From the NCBI GenBank assembly GCA_009380025.1, contig WHSP01000006.1, positions 1-64,000 of the forward strand: 64,000 nt of DNA, in the 5' to 3' direction. The notes beneath the pieces are model-generated. The model did not search any database and was not told the DNA's origin. It was given only the letters and a program-made list of their open reading frames with translations. The stretch is from Gemmatimonas sp. (GTDB lineage Bacteria > Gemmatimonadota > Gemmatimonadetes > Longimicrobiales > Longimicrobiaceae). Shown here piece by piece: positions 2,463-24,480 of this stretch; the stretch's first letter is position 1, and the number at the start of each line of letters is the position of its first letter. Both the position numbers and the translations under genes were made by a program.

Positions 2463-4502
2463 ATGAAGATGATGACTGTAGCGCCGTGGTTCCGCTGGCA
2501 GCGGATGCTCGGGTATTCCCTGCTCCTTGCGATCGCGGTCCCGGCGACGGACTTGCCCGCCGCCGCACAGGAGAGGGGTACCCCCGTCGGTGAATGGCGC
2601 TACCAGAGCGCCGATGCCTGGGGCACGCGATACTCGCCGCTCGACCAGATCAACGCAGAGAACTTTGGGGACCTGGAGGTCGCCTGGCAGTGGCGAGGGG
2701 ACAACTTCGGTGACCACCATGACCCCGTGTCGAGGTCGACACCGTCGTATATCGACGGGAAGTTGTACACGGTTGCCGGGTATCGCAGGCAGGTCGTTTC
2801 GATCGATCCGGCGACGGGCGAAACGCTGTGGACCTACCGCGAGCCGAACACTGAACGCTACGAGCGATCGATGCGCTCCAACTACGGGAAGGGCGTGGCC
2901 TACGCGGAGATCGATGGCCGCAACGTGATCTACATGGTCAGCCCCGCCTTCTTCCTGCATGCGCTCGATGCGGAGACGGGACGGCCGTTAGCCGGGTTCG
3001 GCAGCCCGGTGCCGGTAGAGGGCTTCCCGGAGACCGGTGTGGTCGACCTCCTGGCCGATCTGGGCCACGAGTACGACCCGTACGGCGGGATCCCACGAGA
3101 GGTCGGGATGATCACCAGCTCGTCGCCGCCGATCGTCGTCAATGATGTCGTCGTAGTGGGCAACTCGGCGGAGCAGGGGTACAACCAGACCCGAATCGAG
3201 AACGTTCCGGGCGACATCCTGGCCTACGACGCCCGCACGGGGGAGCACCTTTGGAAGTTCAACGTCATTCCTCGTCCGGGTGAGTTCGGCCACGAGACCT
3301 GGGAAAACGACGCATGGGAGTGGACGGGTGACGTCTCTTCCTGGGCGCCGATGTCCGCCGACGTTGAGCGGGGCATCGTCTATATCCCGACAAACCCGCC
3401 CACGGTCGATTACTATGGTGGATTCCGACCGGGCGACGGCCTGTTCGGAACGAGCGTGATCGCTCTCGACGTTCAGACCGGTCAGAGGGTCTGGCATTTT
3501 CAGACCGTCCGCCACGACATCTGGAACTACGACCTACCGGGCGTACCGGTGTTGGCCGACCTGAACGTCGACGGTCAGGAGATCCCGGCAGTGATCCAGC
3601 CGACGAAGCAGGGGATGCTCTTCGCGTTCAATCGGGAGACGGGCGAGCCGGTCTGGCCGATCGAGGAGCGGCCGGTTCCGGAGTCGGAGGTGCCGGGCGA
3701 GCAGCTGTCGCCGACACAGCCATTCCCGACGCGGCCGGAGCCCCTCGAGAAGTTGGGAATCACGGAGGACGACCTGATCGACTATACGCCGGAGCTTCAC
3801 CAGGCGGCCGTCGAGACTTTCCAGGAGTATCGCGTCGGCGGACCGTACGAGCCCCCGTTGCACGTCGGTCACGACGCCGGGGTCAAGGGATCGCTGTCGT
3901 GCAGCGGCGGCATCAACATCACCCACCCGGTCACGATGGACCCCGAGACGAACATCATGTACCTGTCGTCCGGGCAGGGGTGCAGCTCGCGGATGGTGAC
4001 CGGAGGTGAGGAGCTCGACCTACCGAACGATCCGATGACGACGGGTCAAACCATCTCCGACTGGGTCGCTGGCCCGAGCGCCGGATTCCCCGGCCCCGAG
4101 GGGCTGCCGATCTATAAGCCTCCTTACAGCCGGATCACGGCGATCGACATGGACACCGGCGAGCACCTCTGGTGGGTGCCGGCCGGAGAGACCCCCGACC
4201 GCATCGCCAACCACCCCTCACTCCAGGGCGTCGATCTGCCGAACACCGGGACTACTTCGCGCGCCATTCTGATGACGACCGGCAGTCTTTTGTTGGCCGC
4301 GACCATGGACGCCGCCGAGAACCCAATCCTGATTGCGCACGACAAGGCCACGGGTGAACGCATCGCGAACATCGACCTCCCCGCCCGCGGGCAGTACGGG
4401 ATGATGACCTACCTGCACGAAGGCAAGCAGTACATCGTCGTGCAGATCGCGAGCGACGACATGCCCGGCTCTCTGGTCGCGCTGACCCTGCCAGAGGAGT
4501 AG
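2463..4502 (+). CDS. PQQ-dependent dehydrogenase (quinoprotein glucose dehydrogenase-like), secreted
   Basis: Repeated beta-propeller motifs (DPATGETLWTYR, YDARTGEHLWKF, LDVQTGQRVWHFQTVRHDIWNYDLP, AFNRETGEPVWPIEERPVP); signal peptide; SD ggagga. Confidence 0.85.
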   Translation: MKMMTVAPWFRWQRMLGYSLLLAIAVPATDLPAAAQERGTPVGEWRYQSADAWGTRYSPLDQINAENFGDLEVAWQWRGDNFGDHHDPVSRSTPSYIDGKLYTVAGYRRQVVSIDPATGETLWTYREPNTERYERSMRSNYGKGVAYAEIDGRNVIYMVSPAFFLHALDAETGRPLAGFGSPVPVEGFPETGVVDLLADLGHEYDPYGGIPREVGMITSSSPPIVVNDVVVVGNSAEQGYNQTRIENVPGDILAYDARTGEHLWKFNVIPRPGEFGHETWENDAWEWTGDVSSWAPMSADVERGIVYIPTNPPTVDYYGGFRPGDGLFGTSVIALDVQTGQRVWHFQTVRHDIWNYDLPGVPVLADLNVDGQEIPAVIQPTKQGMLFAFNRETGEPVWPIEERPVPESEVPGEQLSPTQPFPTRPEPLEKLGITEDDLIDYTPELHQAAVETFQEYRVGGPYEPPLHVGHDAGVKGSLSCSGGINITHPVTMDPETNIMYLSSGQGCSSRMVTGGEELDLPNDPMTTGQTISDWVAGPSAGFPGPEGLPIYKPPYSRITAIDMDTGEHLWWVPAGETPDRIANHPSLQGVDLPNTGTTSRAILMTTGSLLLAATMDAAENPILIAHDKATGERIANIDLPARGQYGMMTYLHEGKQYIVVQIASDDMPGSLVALTLPEE

Positions 4503-4667
4503 ACCGCTCGGCCGAGATCTCAAACCCGCCTGGAAAGGCGCTCATCGCGAAGGGAGCGGTGAGCGCCTTCGAGTAGGCGGAAGTATGGCGACTGGGGCTC
4601 CAAACCCGCTGCGCATGTTTCGTGTCGCTACTGGCGATCGGCTATTGGCCGGGTCTGATCACAGATA

Positions 4668-4807
4668 GAAGGCTATTGATGATCAGGCTTCAGCGAAGGC
4701 CGACGAGAAGTCGTACAGATCGAGGCGCGAGACGAACTGCGAGGAAGCGGGCGCCTGAAGGAAGGTTCTGTTCCCACGTAGTGCTGCGCGATTTATCAGC
4801 GGCCTTC
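4668..4807 (+). repeat. Dispersed intergenic TIR element, copy A
   Basis: Starts gaaggctattgatgatcaggctt, ends gctgcgcgatttatcagcggccttc; homologous to 9089-9249 and reverse of 34128-34236. Confidence 0.75.
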
Positions 4808-4842
4808 TTGCCAATCGAGGAGGGGCTCGCGCCCTCGATCCT

Positions 4843-6909
4843 TCAGGGCTCGAGGCGAAGCGGAACCGTCACCCAGACCTGTGAGGGGACGTTGGGATCC
4901 GGCGCCCCCGTGAATTGCATCAGCCGGGCGGAGTAGACGGCTGCGTCGTCGAGATAGCGAACGCCGCTGGTGGTCTGGATCTCCGCATCGACGACGGCGC
5001 CCTTCTCGTTGACGAGGACGTTCAGCACCATCACCCGCCGCGCCGGCCGGACGCCCGGAACGCGTGCGGTCGAATTGTAGATCCGCGTCAGGCGCTCGAT
5101 GAACGTAGATGCGTTCTGGAGGCGCGGCTGCACGTCGGTAGCGCGTTCGGAGCGCGGTATCGCCGAATCGTCGCGAATCGGGGGTGCTACAAGGGACTCG
5201 GTGCTGCGGATGGAGGCGGGCGGGATCGGCGGGAACGCGAACGCGCTGACGAGGTCGTCGTCGAGGGGGAGAAGCGCCGAATCTGTCGGGGTGCCGATGG
5301 GTTGGACTGGCGAGTCGATTGCGGCCGGCGCCATCGGGACGAATTCGTCGGTCGTGCGGGCGGAATCGGTGGTGATGGCAGTGCTCGGAGGCTCGTCCGC
5401 AGCCTGCTCGGACACCGCGGGCGTCGTGCGGACAGGCACGGGCTCGTCGCTCGAGTCGGCGAGCGCCAGGCCGCCGACGATCACGGAGTCGACCTCTTGC
5501 TCCGTCGGGAAGGGAACGGCCTCCTCCGCGGCGAGCGGCGCTCCCTGCTGGGGACGCGTAACGGCGAACGCGAACGCGCCAATGACCAGCAGGGCCACGA
5601 TGGCCGCGAGCACGCCAACCATTCTCGGGCGCCGAAGGAACCACGGCTCGTCTTCGTCGACGGGATGGTCGTTCTCCGGATATTCGTCCTCCGGGTCGTC
5701 GCCCTGCGGATAGTCCATCTCTATCAACGCGTCACCCCCGAGCACTCCCCCGACCTCGATACCGCTGGGGTCCTCCACCTCCACCTCAACCTCCACCTCC
5801 AACTCAGGATTGACCTCGTCCCACGGCTCCGCCTCGCCAACGGCGGCGGCCGGAGGCGTGGCCGCCTGCTTCCCGGCCGAGACCGGCACGTGGATGGGGA
5901 CGAGCGCCGGGGTCGTGGGTGTGGCCGGCGCTTCCAGCTCGGGCGGAGGAGTGGGCTCGGGCGCCGGAGCCGAGATCTCGGTCGTCGGCGTAACCGCCGG
6001 CGGCGAGACCCGGGTCGGGGTCGGGGCGGCGGCCGGGGTCGAGATCGAGGTCGGGATGGCGGATCTGCCCTCGAGGTGGGCGAGCAGCGCGGCCGCATCG
6101 TCCCAGCGATCTGCAGGACGCTTCTCGGTGGCCTTCTCGATGGCAAAACGAAGTCGATCCGAGACGTCCGACCGGATCTCCTTCAGAGACGGGAGCTTTT
6201 CGGTCTTCTGACGGAAAATGACGCTGTAGAGGTTCTCTCCCGCCCACGGCCGCCGCCCCGTCAGCATCTCGTAGCCCACCATGCCGAGACTGTAGAGGTC
6301 GCTTTGGCCAGTCACGCCCGTGCCGTCGATCTGTTCCGGCGACATGTACGCGGGGGTACCGATGACGACGCCAGTCAGCGTGACGCTCGCCTGCCCATCG
6401 CCCGGCTTCGCGATCCCGAAGTCGGCGACGAAGGCACACCCCGACTCGCTGTCGACGAAGATGTTCTCGGGCTTGATATCGCGGTGGACGATCTGGTGGC
6501 TGTGCAGGTACTGGAGGGCGGCGACGACGTCGACGAGAATGCGTTCGGCGACTTCGGGGGTGAACGGACCGCGTTCCCGGATCAGCGACTTCAGCGTTCG
6601 CCACCCCGCCGAGTGCTGCATTACCAGCGCGAGGGACCCGTCGGCCAGCTGTTTCGCCGAGTACAGCATCACGATGTTCGGATGCTGGAGCCTGGCGAGC
6701 ACGCGGGCTTCGCGTTCGAAGCGGGTGACCGCTTCCGTGTCGTCCAGCTGCGTGCCGCGGATCAGCTTGATCGCGACCTCCCTGCCCAGCACCAGATCGC
6801 GACCATGGAACACCACGGAAGAACCGCCACGCCCGAGCTCTTCTAGGATCTGGTACTCGGACCCGATGGCCAGGTCTAGATCTCTTCGAAAATCTCGTTC
6901 TGTGGTCAT
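4843..6909 (-). CDS. Ser/Thr protein kinase with TM segment and C-terminal TonB-like domain
   Basis: GRGGSSVVF, VAIKLI, HRDIKPENI, DFGIAKPG; TM VGVLAAIVALLVIGAFAFAV; C-term VMVLNVLVNEKGAVVDAEIQTTSGVRYLDDAAVYSARLMQFTGAPDPNVPSQVWVTVPLRL resembles TonB_C. Confidence 0.85.
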   Translation of the reverse strand: MTTERDFRRDLDLAIGSEYQILEELGRGGSSVVFHGRDLVLGREVAIKLIRGTQLDDTEAVTRFEREARVLARLQHPNIVMLYSAKQLADGSLALVMQHSAGWRTLKSLIRERGPFTPEVAERILVDVVAALQYLHSHQIVHRDIKPENIFVDSESGCAFVADFGIAKPGDGQASVTLTGVVIGTPAYMSPEQIDGTGVTGQSDLYSLGMVGYEMLTGRRPWAGENLYSVIFRQKTEKLPSLKEIRSDVSDRLRFAIEKATEKRPADRWDDAAALLAHLEGRSAIPTSISTPAAAPTPTRVSPPAVTPTTEISAPAPEPTPPPELEAPATPTTPALVPIHVPVSAGKQAATPPAAAVGEAEPWDEVNPELEVEVEVEVEDPSGIEVGGVLGGDALIEMDYPQGDDPEDEYPENDHPVDEDEPWFLRRPRMVGVLAAIVALLVIGAFAFAVTRPQQGAPLAAEEAVPFPTEQEVDSVIVGGLALADSSDEPVPVRTTPAVSEQAADEPPSTAITTDSARTTDEFVPMAPAAIDSPVQPIGTPTDSALLPLDDDLVSAFAFPPIPPASIRSTESLVAPPIRDDSAIPRSERATDVQPRLQNASTFIERLTRIYNSTARVPGVRPARRVMVLNVLVNEKGAVVDAEIQTTSGVRYLDDAAVYSARLMQFTGAPDPNVPSQVWVTVPLRLEP

Positions 6910-20579: not shown

Positions 20580-20712
20580 CCCGAATCCCTCTCTTGTGAC
20601 GTAGTCGCCATTTCTGCGTCTGGCCCCAATTGCCGTCACCCCCAGGTTTCCTGAAGGGACGGTCGACCCGCGTCCGACCACTCATCATTTCCGACCACCC
20701 GTCATTCGCGCC

Positions 20713-20787
20713 CCCATCTCGTCATAATTCCCGCGAAGGCGGGAATCCGGCGGCTGGATCCCCGCGTCGCGGGAATGGCAAAGCAAT
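20713..20787. repeat. REP-like inverted repeat of the widespread ATTCCCGCGAAGGCGGGAAT..CTGGATCCCCGC..GGGAATG type
   Basis: cgtcataattcccgcgaaggcgggaatccggcggctggatccccgcgtcgcgggaatgg. Confidence 0.7.
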
Positions 20788-22108
20788 GGCGGAGGACGAG
20801 ATGCATCGGACCAGTCGGACCAGGTTGCCTGGAATCGCGCCACCGTTGGATCCGCTTTCCGTACTGGATGGCGACTGGGCGAAAGGGGGCGGGAGATCCC
20901 AGGCGAGCCCCTGGCCGGGGATCGCGGAAACGCGAATGCTCGCCCGGCGTGGACAGAGGCGGCTCCTGATGTTCGAGACCGCAGTAGGGACCAGGCTCCC
21001 GGACTATGGACGACGGCGCCGGCTGCGTAGCCGCCTGACACAGATCGGATTGGTCGATGAGGGGGACGTAGTGACCTTCACCGATTCCGCGCACTCCAGC
21101 TTCTTCTGGGTGTGGACCGCTCCGGCCGCTGTCGGCGGCCACCGATACGTCGACTATCGGTTCCCGATACGTGCTGAATCGATCAGGCGCGACCTTCGAT
21201 CGTTGCCCCACGAACTCGCTCTGACCGATTCGGCACGGAGCAGCGGGCTCGATCCCCTCCAATCGTGCATCGTTCGACGGATCGCCAGCTACATCGATCG
21301 GTCCCGGTCGGACGACGGCGACCCTGGCACACTCCTCCTGGCGATCGCGGGCACCCGGGACGTCCGTCCCCTCAGGAGACTCTGGAGCGGTCTCGAACGG
21401 CTAACGATTCTGGACGAGGCCTGCGGAACGGGGGATTGGTTGTTCTCGACAGGTCGTATTCTGGAGTCGATCTATATCGCGTGCGTCGACCGGATGCGTG
21501 CCTGGCTGGATGATCTGGAGGTAGCCGGGCACTGCCGCAGGCCCGAGTACCTGTCGGACTTCCGCGCGATAGTCCGGATGGCCGAGGACTCCCGACTACA
21601 TCCCACACCCGAGGTGTTCGTCCGAAGGCTTCTCCTCCAGAGGAACCTCTTCGGCATTTCCAGCGTTGGCAGGGAGATCCGGATCTCTCGTCGAGCTTTG
21701 TTGGAATTCGGCCGGTTCGGCGACGGCGGCATTCCGGCCTTCGACTTGAATATCGTTCCAAGCGTCGCTCGCTCCGCGCCAATGGGCCCCGCGCGAGACA
21801 CATCTGAGGGCTGCGGGATGCGGCAGAAGGCGGACGATTCGGAGGAGTTCGAGGTTTTGGCTCGTACGCTATCCCTGCTTCGGTCGTATCGACTGTGTGG
21901 GGATGGATCACGCGAGGCGTTTCGGCTGGCAGCCATCGAGTTGACCCGTCGGCGTCGGATCATGACCGGAGACCCGCCGGGATCCGACCCGCGCGAGGTC
22001 GGTGACACCGGCTCGTTTGCTGGGACCTCGCGAGGGAGTTTGCGGAATATCTTCCTTCGGTCGATCGATCTTGGTGGTTTCGACTTCGTGCGCCCCAGGA
22101 TCCAATGA
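20786..22108 (+). CDS. Divergent DNA adenine methyltransferase-like protein (degenerate motif I, no recognisable NPPY)
   Basis: LTILDEACGTGDWLFSTGRILESIYIACVDRMRAWL..FVRRLLLQRNLFGISSVGREIRISRRALLEF..IPAFDLNIV resembles LDPxCGSGAFLFAA.ILE..Y.AC..RM..NNLYGVD.M.EAVEI..LRL..LPD.DFNI of Eco57I/BREX-type methylases. Confidence 0.55.
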   Translation: MAEDEMHRTSRTRLPGIAPPLDPLSVLDGDWAKGGGRSQASPWPGIAETRMLARRGQRRLLMFETAVGTRLPDYGRRRRLRSRLTQIGLVDEGDVVTFTDSAHSSFFWVWTAPAAVGGHRYVDYRFPIRAESIRRDLRSLPHELALTDSARSSGLDPLQSCIVRRIASYIDRSRSDDGDPGTLLLAIAGTRDVRPLRRLWSGLERLTILDEACGTGDWLFSTGRILESIYIACVDRMRAWLDDLEVAGHCRRPEYLSDFRAIVRMAEDSRLHPTPEVFVRRLLLQRNLFGISSVGREIRISRRALLEFGRFGDGGIPAFDLNIVPSVARSAPMGPARDTSEGCGMRQKADDSEEFEVLARTLSLLRSYRLCGDGSREAFRLAAIELTRRRRIMTGDPPGSDPREVGDTGSFAGTSRGSLRNIFLRSIDLGGFDFVRPRIQ

Positions 22109-22719
22109 ACTCCGGCGACTGGCCTCGACGGGTTGGTGATCGCGGCAACTGCGCGTCGGCCGAACTGTGCAGGGGTTCGATCGATCCCGAACTCCGCACG
22201 ATCGGCGATCCCGAGCTACTGAATCGACCCTACCTGGCCATGCTGACCTCGCGGAAGCCCCCTCCTGACCTCTTGCTCCCCACTTTCGATCTGTTCAGGC
22301 GACTCCGCGAGGAGCGGATTCCGGTGGCGGGCGGGTTCCACGGTCCGCTGGAGAGGTCGTGCCTGCGCCTCCTTCTCCGAGGCCGTCAGCCGGTTCTGAT
22401 CTGCCCAGCTCGGACCCTGAAGCGGTTCCGTGTACCCCTCGGCTGGACGGATGCGGTCCGGGCACGGCGGCTCCTGATCGTATCTGAGTTGCCCGATCGC
22501 TGGACCCGCCCATCCAGTCGCTCGGCCGAGTTGCGCAACGATACCCTGACGCGGCTCGCATCGAGGATCTTCGTCGTGAGCGCGAACCCCGGGAGCCGCA
22601 CCTTCGAGCGGGCGCTACGAGTGATGGATGCGGGGAAGCCTGTCCTGTGCTTCGATCACCCGGCCAACCGCGAGCTGCTCATCGCCGGAGCGAGATCCGT
22701 CGAGCCTCGACGACGTTGA
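22105..22719 (+). CDS. DprA/LOG-like Rossmann-fold protein
   Basis: LLNRPYLAMLTSRKPPPDLLLPTFDLFRRLREERIPVAGGFHGPLERSCLRLLLRGRQPVLICPARTL..AELRNDTLTRLASRIFVVSANPGSRTFERALRVMDAGKPVLCFDHPANRELLIAGA; ATGA overlap with upstream gene. Confidence 0.6.
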   Translation: MNSGDWPRRVGDRGNCASAELCRGSIDPELRTIGDPELLNRPYLAMLTSRKPPPDLLLPTFDLFRRLREERIPVAGGFHGPLERSCLRLLLRGRQPVLICPARTLKRFRVPLGWTDAVRARRLLIVSELPDRWTRPSSRSAELRNDTLTRLASRIFVVSANPGSRTFERALRVMDAGKPVLCFDHPANRELLIAGARSVEPRRR

Positions 22720-23604: not shown

Positions 23605-24480
23605 TCAGGACGGATTCGGGGCCGGGGGATGGTCCTCGACCATCCGGCCGCACCAACGGATATCTTCGCGGCCAGCGAAGCGGCGTTGCATGACCCGGAT
23701 GGCTTCCGGGTTGTCGTCGACGAGGACGAAGCGCCGCCCCAACTCGAGGCACGCGGCACCCGTCGTTCCGCTGCCTGCGAAGAAGTCGAGGACCAGGTCC
23801 CCCGGTCGAGAGGAGGCGGTCACGATCCGCCTGAGGATGCCGATCGGCTTCTGGGTCGGATAGCCCGTCTTCTCCACGCCGCTCGTCGGGACGATCGTGT
23901 GCCACCACGTGTCGGTTGGCAGCTTGCCGAGCGCTGCCTTCTCGGCCGTGACCAGACCGGGCGCCATGTATGGAATCCGATCGACGGCCTCGGCGTCGAA
24001 CCAATATCGGTCAGGATCTTTCACGTAGAACAGGATGTTGTCGTGCTTCGGCGGCCACTTCTTCTTCGTCCGCCCGCCGTAGTCGTAAGCCCAGACGATC
24101 TCGTTCAGGAAGCACCGGCGGCCGAAGATCTCGTCCAGGAGGATCTTGCAGTAGTGGACCTCGCGGTAGTCGATGTGGAAGTAGAGTGAGCCGTCGGACG
24201 CAAGCACTCGATGAGCTTCCCGAAGCCGTGGCTCGAGGAAGCCCAAAAAGTCGTCGAAAGCGTCCGGGTAGGACCGGGTCTCTCCGCGGGTCGTGCGATA
24301 GGGTCGTCCGCCAAAACCGATGCGGTCCGCTCCGGCAGCGTGCGTACGAACCACACGGAGCTCCGAGCGACGGCGGAAGCGACCGGTGTTGAAGGGGGGG
24401 TCGATGTAAATGAGGTTCGCGCTGCCCGACGGCGTCGCCTCGAGAACCTCGAGGTTGTCAGCGTGGTGGATCTGATGCAC
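23605..24480 (-). CDS. Site-specific DNA methyltransferase (beta-class), apparently without cognate REase
   Basis: LIYIDPPFNTGRF; HIDYREVHYCKILLDEIFG; EKTGYPTQKPIGILRRIV; DLVLDFFAGSGTTGAACLELGRRFVLVDDNPEAI. Confidence 0.85.
   Translation of the reverse strand: MHQIHHADNLEVLEATPSGSANLIYIDPPFNTGRFRRRSELRVVRTHAAGADRIGFGGRPYRTTRGETRSYPDAFDDFLGFLEPRLREAHRVLASDGSLYFHIDYREVHYCKILLDEIFGRRCFLNEIVWAYDYGGRTKKKWPPKHDNILFYVKDPDRYWFDAEAVDRIPYMAPGLVTAEKAALGKLPTDTWWHTIVPTSGVEKTGYPTQKPIGILRRIVTASSRPGDLVLDFFAGSGTTGAACLELGRRFVLVDDNPEAIRVMQRRFAGREDIRWCGRMVEDHPPAPNPS

Follow-up and report, generated by a model that had tools for sequence, protein, structure and literature searches.

A shortened type IIG methylase homologue and a DprA-like protein encoded by overlapping genes in a Gemmatimonas genome, possibly descended from a restriction-type defence operon

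To our knowledge, the DprA-like proteins known so far are recombination mediators and antitoxins. The known toxins of PsyrTA/ShosTA-type systems are phosphoribosyltransferases or RecQ-type helicases, and N6-adenine methylases that lose motifs IV and X lose catalysis with them. In transformation, single-stranded DNA and RecA are both bound by DprA homologues; in shosTA, syrTA and rqlHI, DprA homologues are the antitoxins (PMC9122126). In a 64,000-nt stretch of a Gemmatimonas sp. genome (contig WHSP01000006.1; hereinafter the window), we analysed a pair of overlapping genes, ORF1 and ORF2, encoding a methylase-like protein and a DprA-like protein. The family of ORF2 accompanies type IIG restriction enzymes in many phyla, an arrangement for which our literature search found no description; restriction-modification is thereby a third association of DprA-like proteins, which makes a defence role testable. 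In the window the same two partners outlive catalysis, suggesting that interaction, not chemistry, may be what is kept, and the pair offers a minimal two-protein system for testing the interaction between DprA-like and IIG proteins.

ORF1 (20786-22108; coordinates are on the plus strand unless marked with a minus sign) encodes a 440-aa, shortened and NPPY-less homologue of type IIG (Eco57I-like) methylases. Its frame contains no stop, compared with 4-12 stops in each of the five other frames over that stretch; the start at 20786 is the first ATG and one choice, as the open frame also takes in a TTG at 20630. A short palindromic, REP-like repeat (attcccgcgaaggcgggaat) lies 5' of the ATG at 20725-20780. 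ORF1 matches the PADLOC type IIG REase/MTase profile (2.7e-10); Pfam returns MmeI_Mtase alone (E 0.06), and NCBIfam has no match for ORF1 or ORF2. The protein aligns collinearly to the ~1100-aa Eco57I/type IIG family. Against a profile made from 14 full-length relatives of ~1100 aa, ORF1 gives two matches in order, weakly at profile positions 56-135 (i-E 0.0027) and then at 488-590 (i-E 6.6e-22), and the homologue in genome G003, from the same taxonomic family, matches at 19-136 (i-E 1.4e-23) and 476-753 (2.5e-43).

The likeness to the type IIG enzymes (Eco57I/PADLOC PDLC03628 group) covers two regions: the N-terminal module and that half of the methylase domain which holds motifs I-III. The N-terminal domain of ORF1 (aa ~45-139, 20918-21202), with a predicted bbabbb order, corresponds to the module at residues ~20-136 of the full-size enzyme. 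It is followed, in the alignment, by a junction (21203-21343) in place of ~330 internal residues with the helical domain and motif X (GAYYTKEDIT; profile ~137-476, with motif X at position 343), and by the methylase-domain half with motifs I-III (aa 187-435, 21344-22090, placed by the IIG profile). Within this half, alignment reveals that the SAM-binding motif I (LDPxCGSG), LDPTCGSG in the family, reads LDEACGTG (21410-21433) and is further worn to LGRGGSG in G001, a genome of the same genus. The motif II-like NLYGVD has become NLFGIS (21644-21661), with its acidic residue gone, and LPDIDFNI has become IPAFDLNI, the motif III-like FDLNI (family DIDFNI) lying at 21740-21754. The C-terminus, GGFDFVRPRIQ-stop (22073-22105), stands where relatives have GGFDVIIGNPPY and falls exactly before motif IV, whereas relatives run on into NPPY at profile position 754. 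Motif IV NPPY/F/W is absent from the ORF1 sequence, and none of the four members of the shortened type has a profile match past 753, where the target-recognition C-terminal half of the IIG enzymes lies. Compared with these enzymes, ORF1 is ~330 residues shorter internally and has neither motif X, nor motif IV, nor the target-recognition half; because the last three are missing, it should not methylate DNA, and its sequence supports a non-catalytic methylase-like protein.

AlphaFold models ORF1 poorly (mean pLDDT 53), with better values in the N-terminal bbabbb unit (pLDDT ~65-83 for aa 41-110) and the motif I region. The best fold match of this low-confidence model is BREX PglX (8c45; E 0.012), suggestive at most. 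PglX/BrxX belongs to the same broad N6-adenine methylase class; unlike it, ORF1 is shortened, and by sequence it is far closer to the IIG group. Neither PglZ nor BrxC is found among the flanking genes, for which Pfam gives an acyl-CoA thioesterase, a YiiD thioesterase and an N6_N4_Mtase. The last is an orphan N6_N4 DNA methylase (23608-24480, minus) whose gene overlaps that of the YiiD thioesterase (Pfam); nothing in the collinear part of G001 matches this stretch.

ORF2 (22105-22719) encodes a 204-aa DprA-like protein (SLOG superfamily) of a small, defence-associated family, and its start overlaps the ORF1 stop in an ATGA (22105-22108). It is matched by Pfam PF02481 (DprA; 7.5e-5) and by PADLOC PsyrA (9.6e-7). 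Its AlphaFold model reaches pLDDT 89, and the top PDB matches in Foldseek are all DprA (Streptococcus, Helicobacter; E 4e-10, TM 0.68), followed by the ShosA antitoxin (E 4e-8). ORF2 shares a predicted Rossmann fold of the same superfamily and the R-N pair with DprA/Smf of natural transformation. Unlike DprA/Smf, it is a short single domain that has lost the GxAxGxD loop: the family signature VAGGFHGPLE (22324-22353) stands in place of the DprA S-G-x-A-x-G-x-D loop, reading GGFHGPLE, and its G77, F78, P81 and E83 are invariant among 25 members. R144-N145 in LRNDTLT (22531-22551) is invariant and common to the ORF2 family and true DprA; the family retains S49, R144 and N145, with the GxAxGxD loop changed to GGFxxPxE. 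PsyrA (RqlI) and ShosA are, like ORF2, defence-associated DprA-like proteins, and ORF2 matches the profile of the former and the structure of the latter. Unlike them, it carries its own signature, GGF[HQ]xPxE, and is partnered by a methylase stub, not by a phosphoribosyltransferase or RecQ helicase. The genome of the window encodes a canonical full-length DprA as a separate gene on contig C475 (E 4.8e-75) and, on C44, a PsyrA-type copy adjoining a RecQ-type helicase (a PsyrTA-like pair), making ORF2 a third, separate paralogue. ORF2 is thus a member of a distinct small DprA-like family with a predicted DprA Rossmann fold.

These results bear out much of an earlier note on this DNA, written from the letters alone. 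Both ORFs lie where it placed them, with the ATGA overlap (start 22105, end of stop 22108), the LDEACGTG it quoted for ORF1 is in place, as are the segments it likened to NLYGVD (reading NLFGIS) and to LPDxDFNI (reading IPAFDLNI), and NPPY/NPPF is absent. The methylase framework that it described as kept holds for the N-terminal domain and motifs I-III, but the ~330 residues with motif X are deleted and the protein ends before motif IV. Its view of ORF1 as a non-catalytic methylase-like protein is supported. Its placing of ORF2 in the DprA/LOG superfamily is upheld by PF02481 and by the model matching DprA. SAM or DNA sensing by ORF1 is not supported, with motifs I and II eroded in some members, motif X gone and the model poor. 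The wide partnership of ORF2's family with full-size IIG enzymes lay beyond what the letters alone could reveal.

We looked for the pair among 61 genomes, draft MAGs in which the absence of a gene can be assembly loss; the window genome, G000, is a 5.0-Mb assembly in 478 contigs. Four members of the window's family carry the shortened ORF1 type: G000, the same-genus G001, G003 and G009; the homologues in the relatives have E-values of 8e-15, 5e-14 and 2e-26. The two homologues overlap by 8 nt in G001, are adjacent with a possible overlap in G009, and are fused into a single 696-aa ORF in G003. G001 and the window are collinear over ~10 kb, in which most neighbours are 53-67% identical, ORF1 28% and ORF2 42%; G009 shares with the window the tesB gene just upstream (73%) and a block further downstream. 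These conserved neighbours indicate vertical inheritance of the locus, and the pair has long been kept at one chromosomal spot. Conserved pairing and fusion rule out a chance overlap of unrelated ORFs. Among the observations that the earlier note named as counting against its reading were a loss of pairing in relatives, where the pair is in fact kept by overlap, adjacency and fusion, and homologues with intact NPPY, which are indeed common. The latter would mark the window copy as a decayed methylase; the four shortened members, however, are intact ORFs with one architecture, pointing to a truncated lineage and not to a single decayed copy. In another genus of the family (g8), an ORF2 homologue is present without ORF1, which would be dispensable there. 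In G001, a ~1.6-kb insertion is flanked by two copies (L145 5047-5225 and 6788-6965, 92% identical) of a stretch of ~180 bp that spans the start of ORF1. A divergent phosphoribosyltransferase gene lies beside the G003 fusion gene (L146 3630-4172); phosphoribosyltransferases partner other DprA-like defence proteins.

The rate of evolution of ORF1 greatly exceeds that of the adjacent genes and of its full-length relatives. Its dN to the homologue in G001 is 0.81, compared with 0.22-0.37 for neighbours, with third positions saturated, and the tree branches of the shortened forms measure 2.5-10 against a median of 0.49; monophyly of these forms, of which there are four sequences, has weak support (56/91). 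Realigned shuffles reach up to 27% identity against 34% for the real ORF1, so percent identity alone says little and clear constraint is limited to parts of ORF1. The same control weakens the codon-position mismatch test of constraint, and significance rests on E-values and intact frames. ORF1 is open in each lineage despite saturated synonymous sites, the chance of a stop-free ORF1 at neutral equilibrium being 2e-3 to 6e-6 per lineage. Codon-position GC is 0.64/0.54/0.73 for ORF1 and 0.72/0.45/0.83 for tesB.

A scan of 84,980 genomes with four of eight ORF2 homologues as query returned 97 relatives, of which 80 were kept, from Chloroflexota, Planctomycetota, Myxococcota, Thermodesulfobacteriota, Pseudomonadota, Bacteroidota, Armatimonadota, Acidobacteriota and other phyla. 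Among the 59 informative loci, those with at least 1.5 kb of upstream sequence, 30 carry a same-strand IIG-family homologue, full or fragment, upstream of the DprA-like gene. Many of these IIG homologues are complete, with NPPY present, and in several loci whose sequence reaches far enough an SNF2-type helicase lies 5' of the IIG gene, as in Xanthomonas arboricola (L136: helicase 1-2616, IIG 2540-5971, DprA-like 5968-6474). The helicase of L085 has a PLD-like N-terminus. Other loci have a variable gene between IIG and DprA-like: of AlbA/Schlafen type (a cluster in nine loci; Pfam for L126), DUF3644 (L118), or, by reading, resembling an ABC ATPase/TOPRIM. Some IIG loci (G116, G188) have the helicase with no DprA-like gene within the stretch read, so the DprA-like gene is optional. 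No full IIG gene or SNF2 helicase stands beside ORF2 in the window, where the shortened ORF1 is the only IIG homologue present, and G000 has no other match to the full IIG. A scan of viral_contigs yielded no relative, and the Xanthomonas ORF2 homologue had no match among plasmids; these searches lend no support to an origin from phages or plasmids. In PADLOC 2023, the IIG enzyme, the helicase class and PsyrA have separate profiles. Our literature search found no description of the DprA-IIG-SNF2 trio, which is not proof of absence, and a 2026 BREX survey (PMC12839542) leaves SLOG, Smf and Eco57I unmentioned.

We lean, with modest assurance, toward the pair having come down vertically, in stripped form, from a defence operon of restriction type; it would act by binding and gating, without modifying or cutting DNA. 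In the simplest account, the ancestor of this bacterial family had a helicase-IIG-DprA-like operon, comprising an SNF2 helicase, a ~1100-aa Eco57I/IIG methylase-nuclease and a DprA-like accessory. The helicase would have been lost and the shortened IIG and DprA-like genes retained, ORF1 keeping its N-terminal module together with motifs I-III and losing motif X, NPPY and the target-recognition half, with ORF2 as the accessory of the ancestral operon. In its favour stand the collinear alignment to full IIG, with the common internal deletion and the stop before NPPY; the same design in G000, G001, G003 and G009, with tesB and other neighbours conserved; the intact ORF1 frame in each lineage at saturated synonymous sites; the ORF2 family beside IIG homologues in many phyla, with examples that have an SNF2 helicase upstream; and the ORF2 model, which matches DprA and ShosA. 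That the partners stay together, overlap and fuse after catalysis is lost suggests that ORF1 and ORF2 interact physically. The two would be co-translated into one complex, in which the DprA-type Rossmann domain of ORF2 may bind a nucleotide or DNA (most likely single strands or DNA with ends), with ORF1 perhaps serving as its scaffold or regulatory partner, the complex binding and gating instead of modifying or cutting DNA; a residual immune or DNA-handling role is conceivable. A bolder version, which we put forward tentatively and hold to be rather doubtful, is one of domestication: two parts of a restriction operon, the catalytically dead methylase and the DprA-like protein, would now form a stable DNA-binding complex, encoded on the chromosome, that has taken on a new function. 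Likewise, SNF2-IIG defence operons would have in the DprA-like family an accessory subunit so far unrecognised, docking on the common N-terminal module.

The main rival holds that ORF1 is a functionless, decaying remnant of a restriction operon and that the cell still uses ORF2 alone, or neither protein. The acceleration of ORF1 in dN and tree branches, the motif I and II residues lost in G001, the codon-position GC eroded relative to tesB and the genus with an ORF2 homologue alone all fit decay, and the fast evolution of ORF1, which slow decay would equally produce, casts doubt on the preferred reading, as do the identity reached by realigned shuffles, the poor ORF1 model, the ORF1-less genus and the limited monophyly support. 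The persistence of four similarly built, intact ORFs although synonymous divergence is saturated, the G003 fusion and the retained overlap with ORF2 speak against decay, which we consider unlikely, if still a serious contender.

If the pair were a working module of PsyrTA/ShosTA type, for toxin-antitoxin action or abortive infection, ORF2 would be the antitoxin and ORF1 an unusual toxin. This reading would account for the PsyrA profile match (9.6e-7), the ShosA structural match (E 4e-8), the gene overlap and the antitoxin role of DprA homologues in shosTA, syrTA and rqlHI (PMC9122126). We judge it improbable: Pfam, PADLOC and NCBIfam detect no phosphoribosyltransferase or RecQ-PRTase domain in ORF1, which lacks a RecQ-type helicase domain and any recognisable catalytic site, and the solitary ORF2 homologue of genus g8, though a toxin-less antitoxin is possible, would not be expected of such a module. 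A role in natural transformation or recombination, with ORF2 as a second DprA and ORF1 as its dedicated partner, would be consistent with the DprA fold of the ORF2 model and with a fixed, vertically inherited locus. However, the canonical full-length DprA on C475 already undercuts the DNA-uptake role offered by the earlier note, and ORF2, in which the GxAxGxD loop is gone and no additional domain stands at either terminus, belongs to a family that sits with restriction enzymes; we regard such a role as very improbable.

Several DprA-like loci display further arrangements. The IIG N-terminal module is fused to a sigma-70 factor in L080 (429-1748), L082 (4504-5841, minus), L127 (1900-3393) and L102 (171-1937), with sigma-70 regions 2 and 4 identified by Pfam in L080 and L127 and sigma-like by reading in L082 and L102; the L127 fusion lies directly 5' of the DprA-like gene. 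A sigma factor carrying a restriction-enzyme domain is unusual. Short repeats of the IIG C-terminal ~20-60 residues occur 5' of the DprA-like gene in L068 (5708-5905), L076 (288-542), L077 (2108-2275) and L089 (462-707 and 2633-2797), as if insertions at this site gave rise to second copies of the IIG 3' end. A SMODS (CBASS-type) nucleotidyltransferase gene adjoins the DprA-like gene in L063 (3370-4350). Beside other DprA-like genes we identified, by reading, a reverse transcriptase (L081 3146-5197), a DUF262-like protein (L106 4526-5722) and a Cas9-like protein (L112 1-2028), neighbours that suggest a defence-island habitat.
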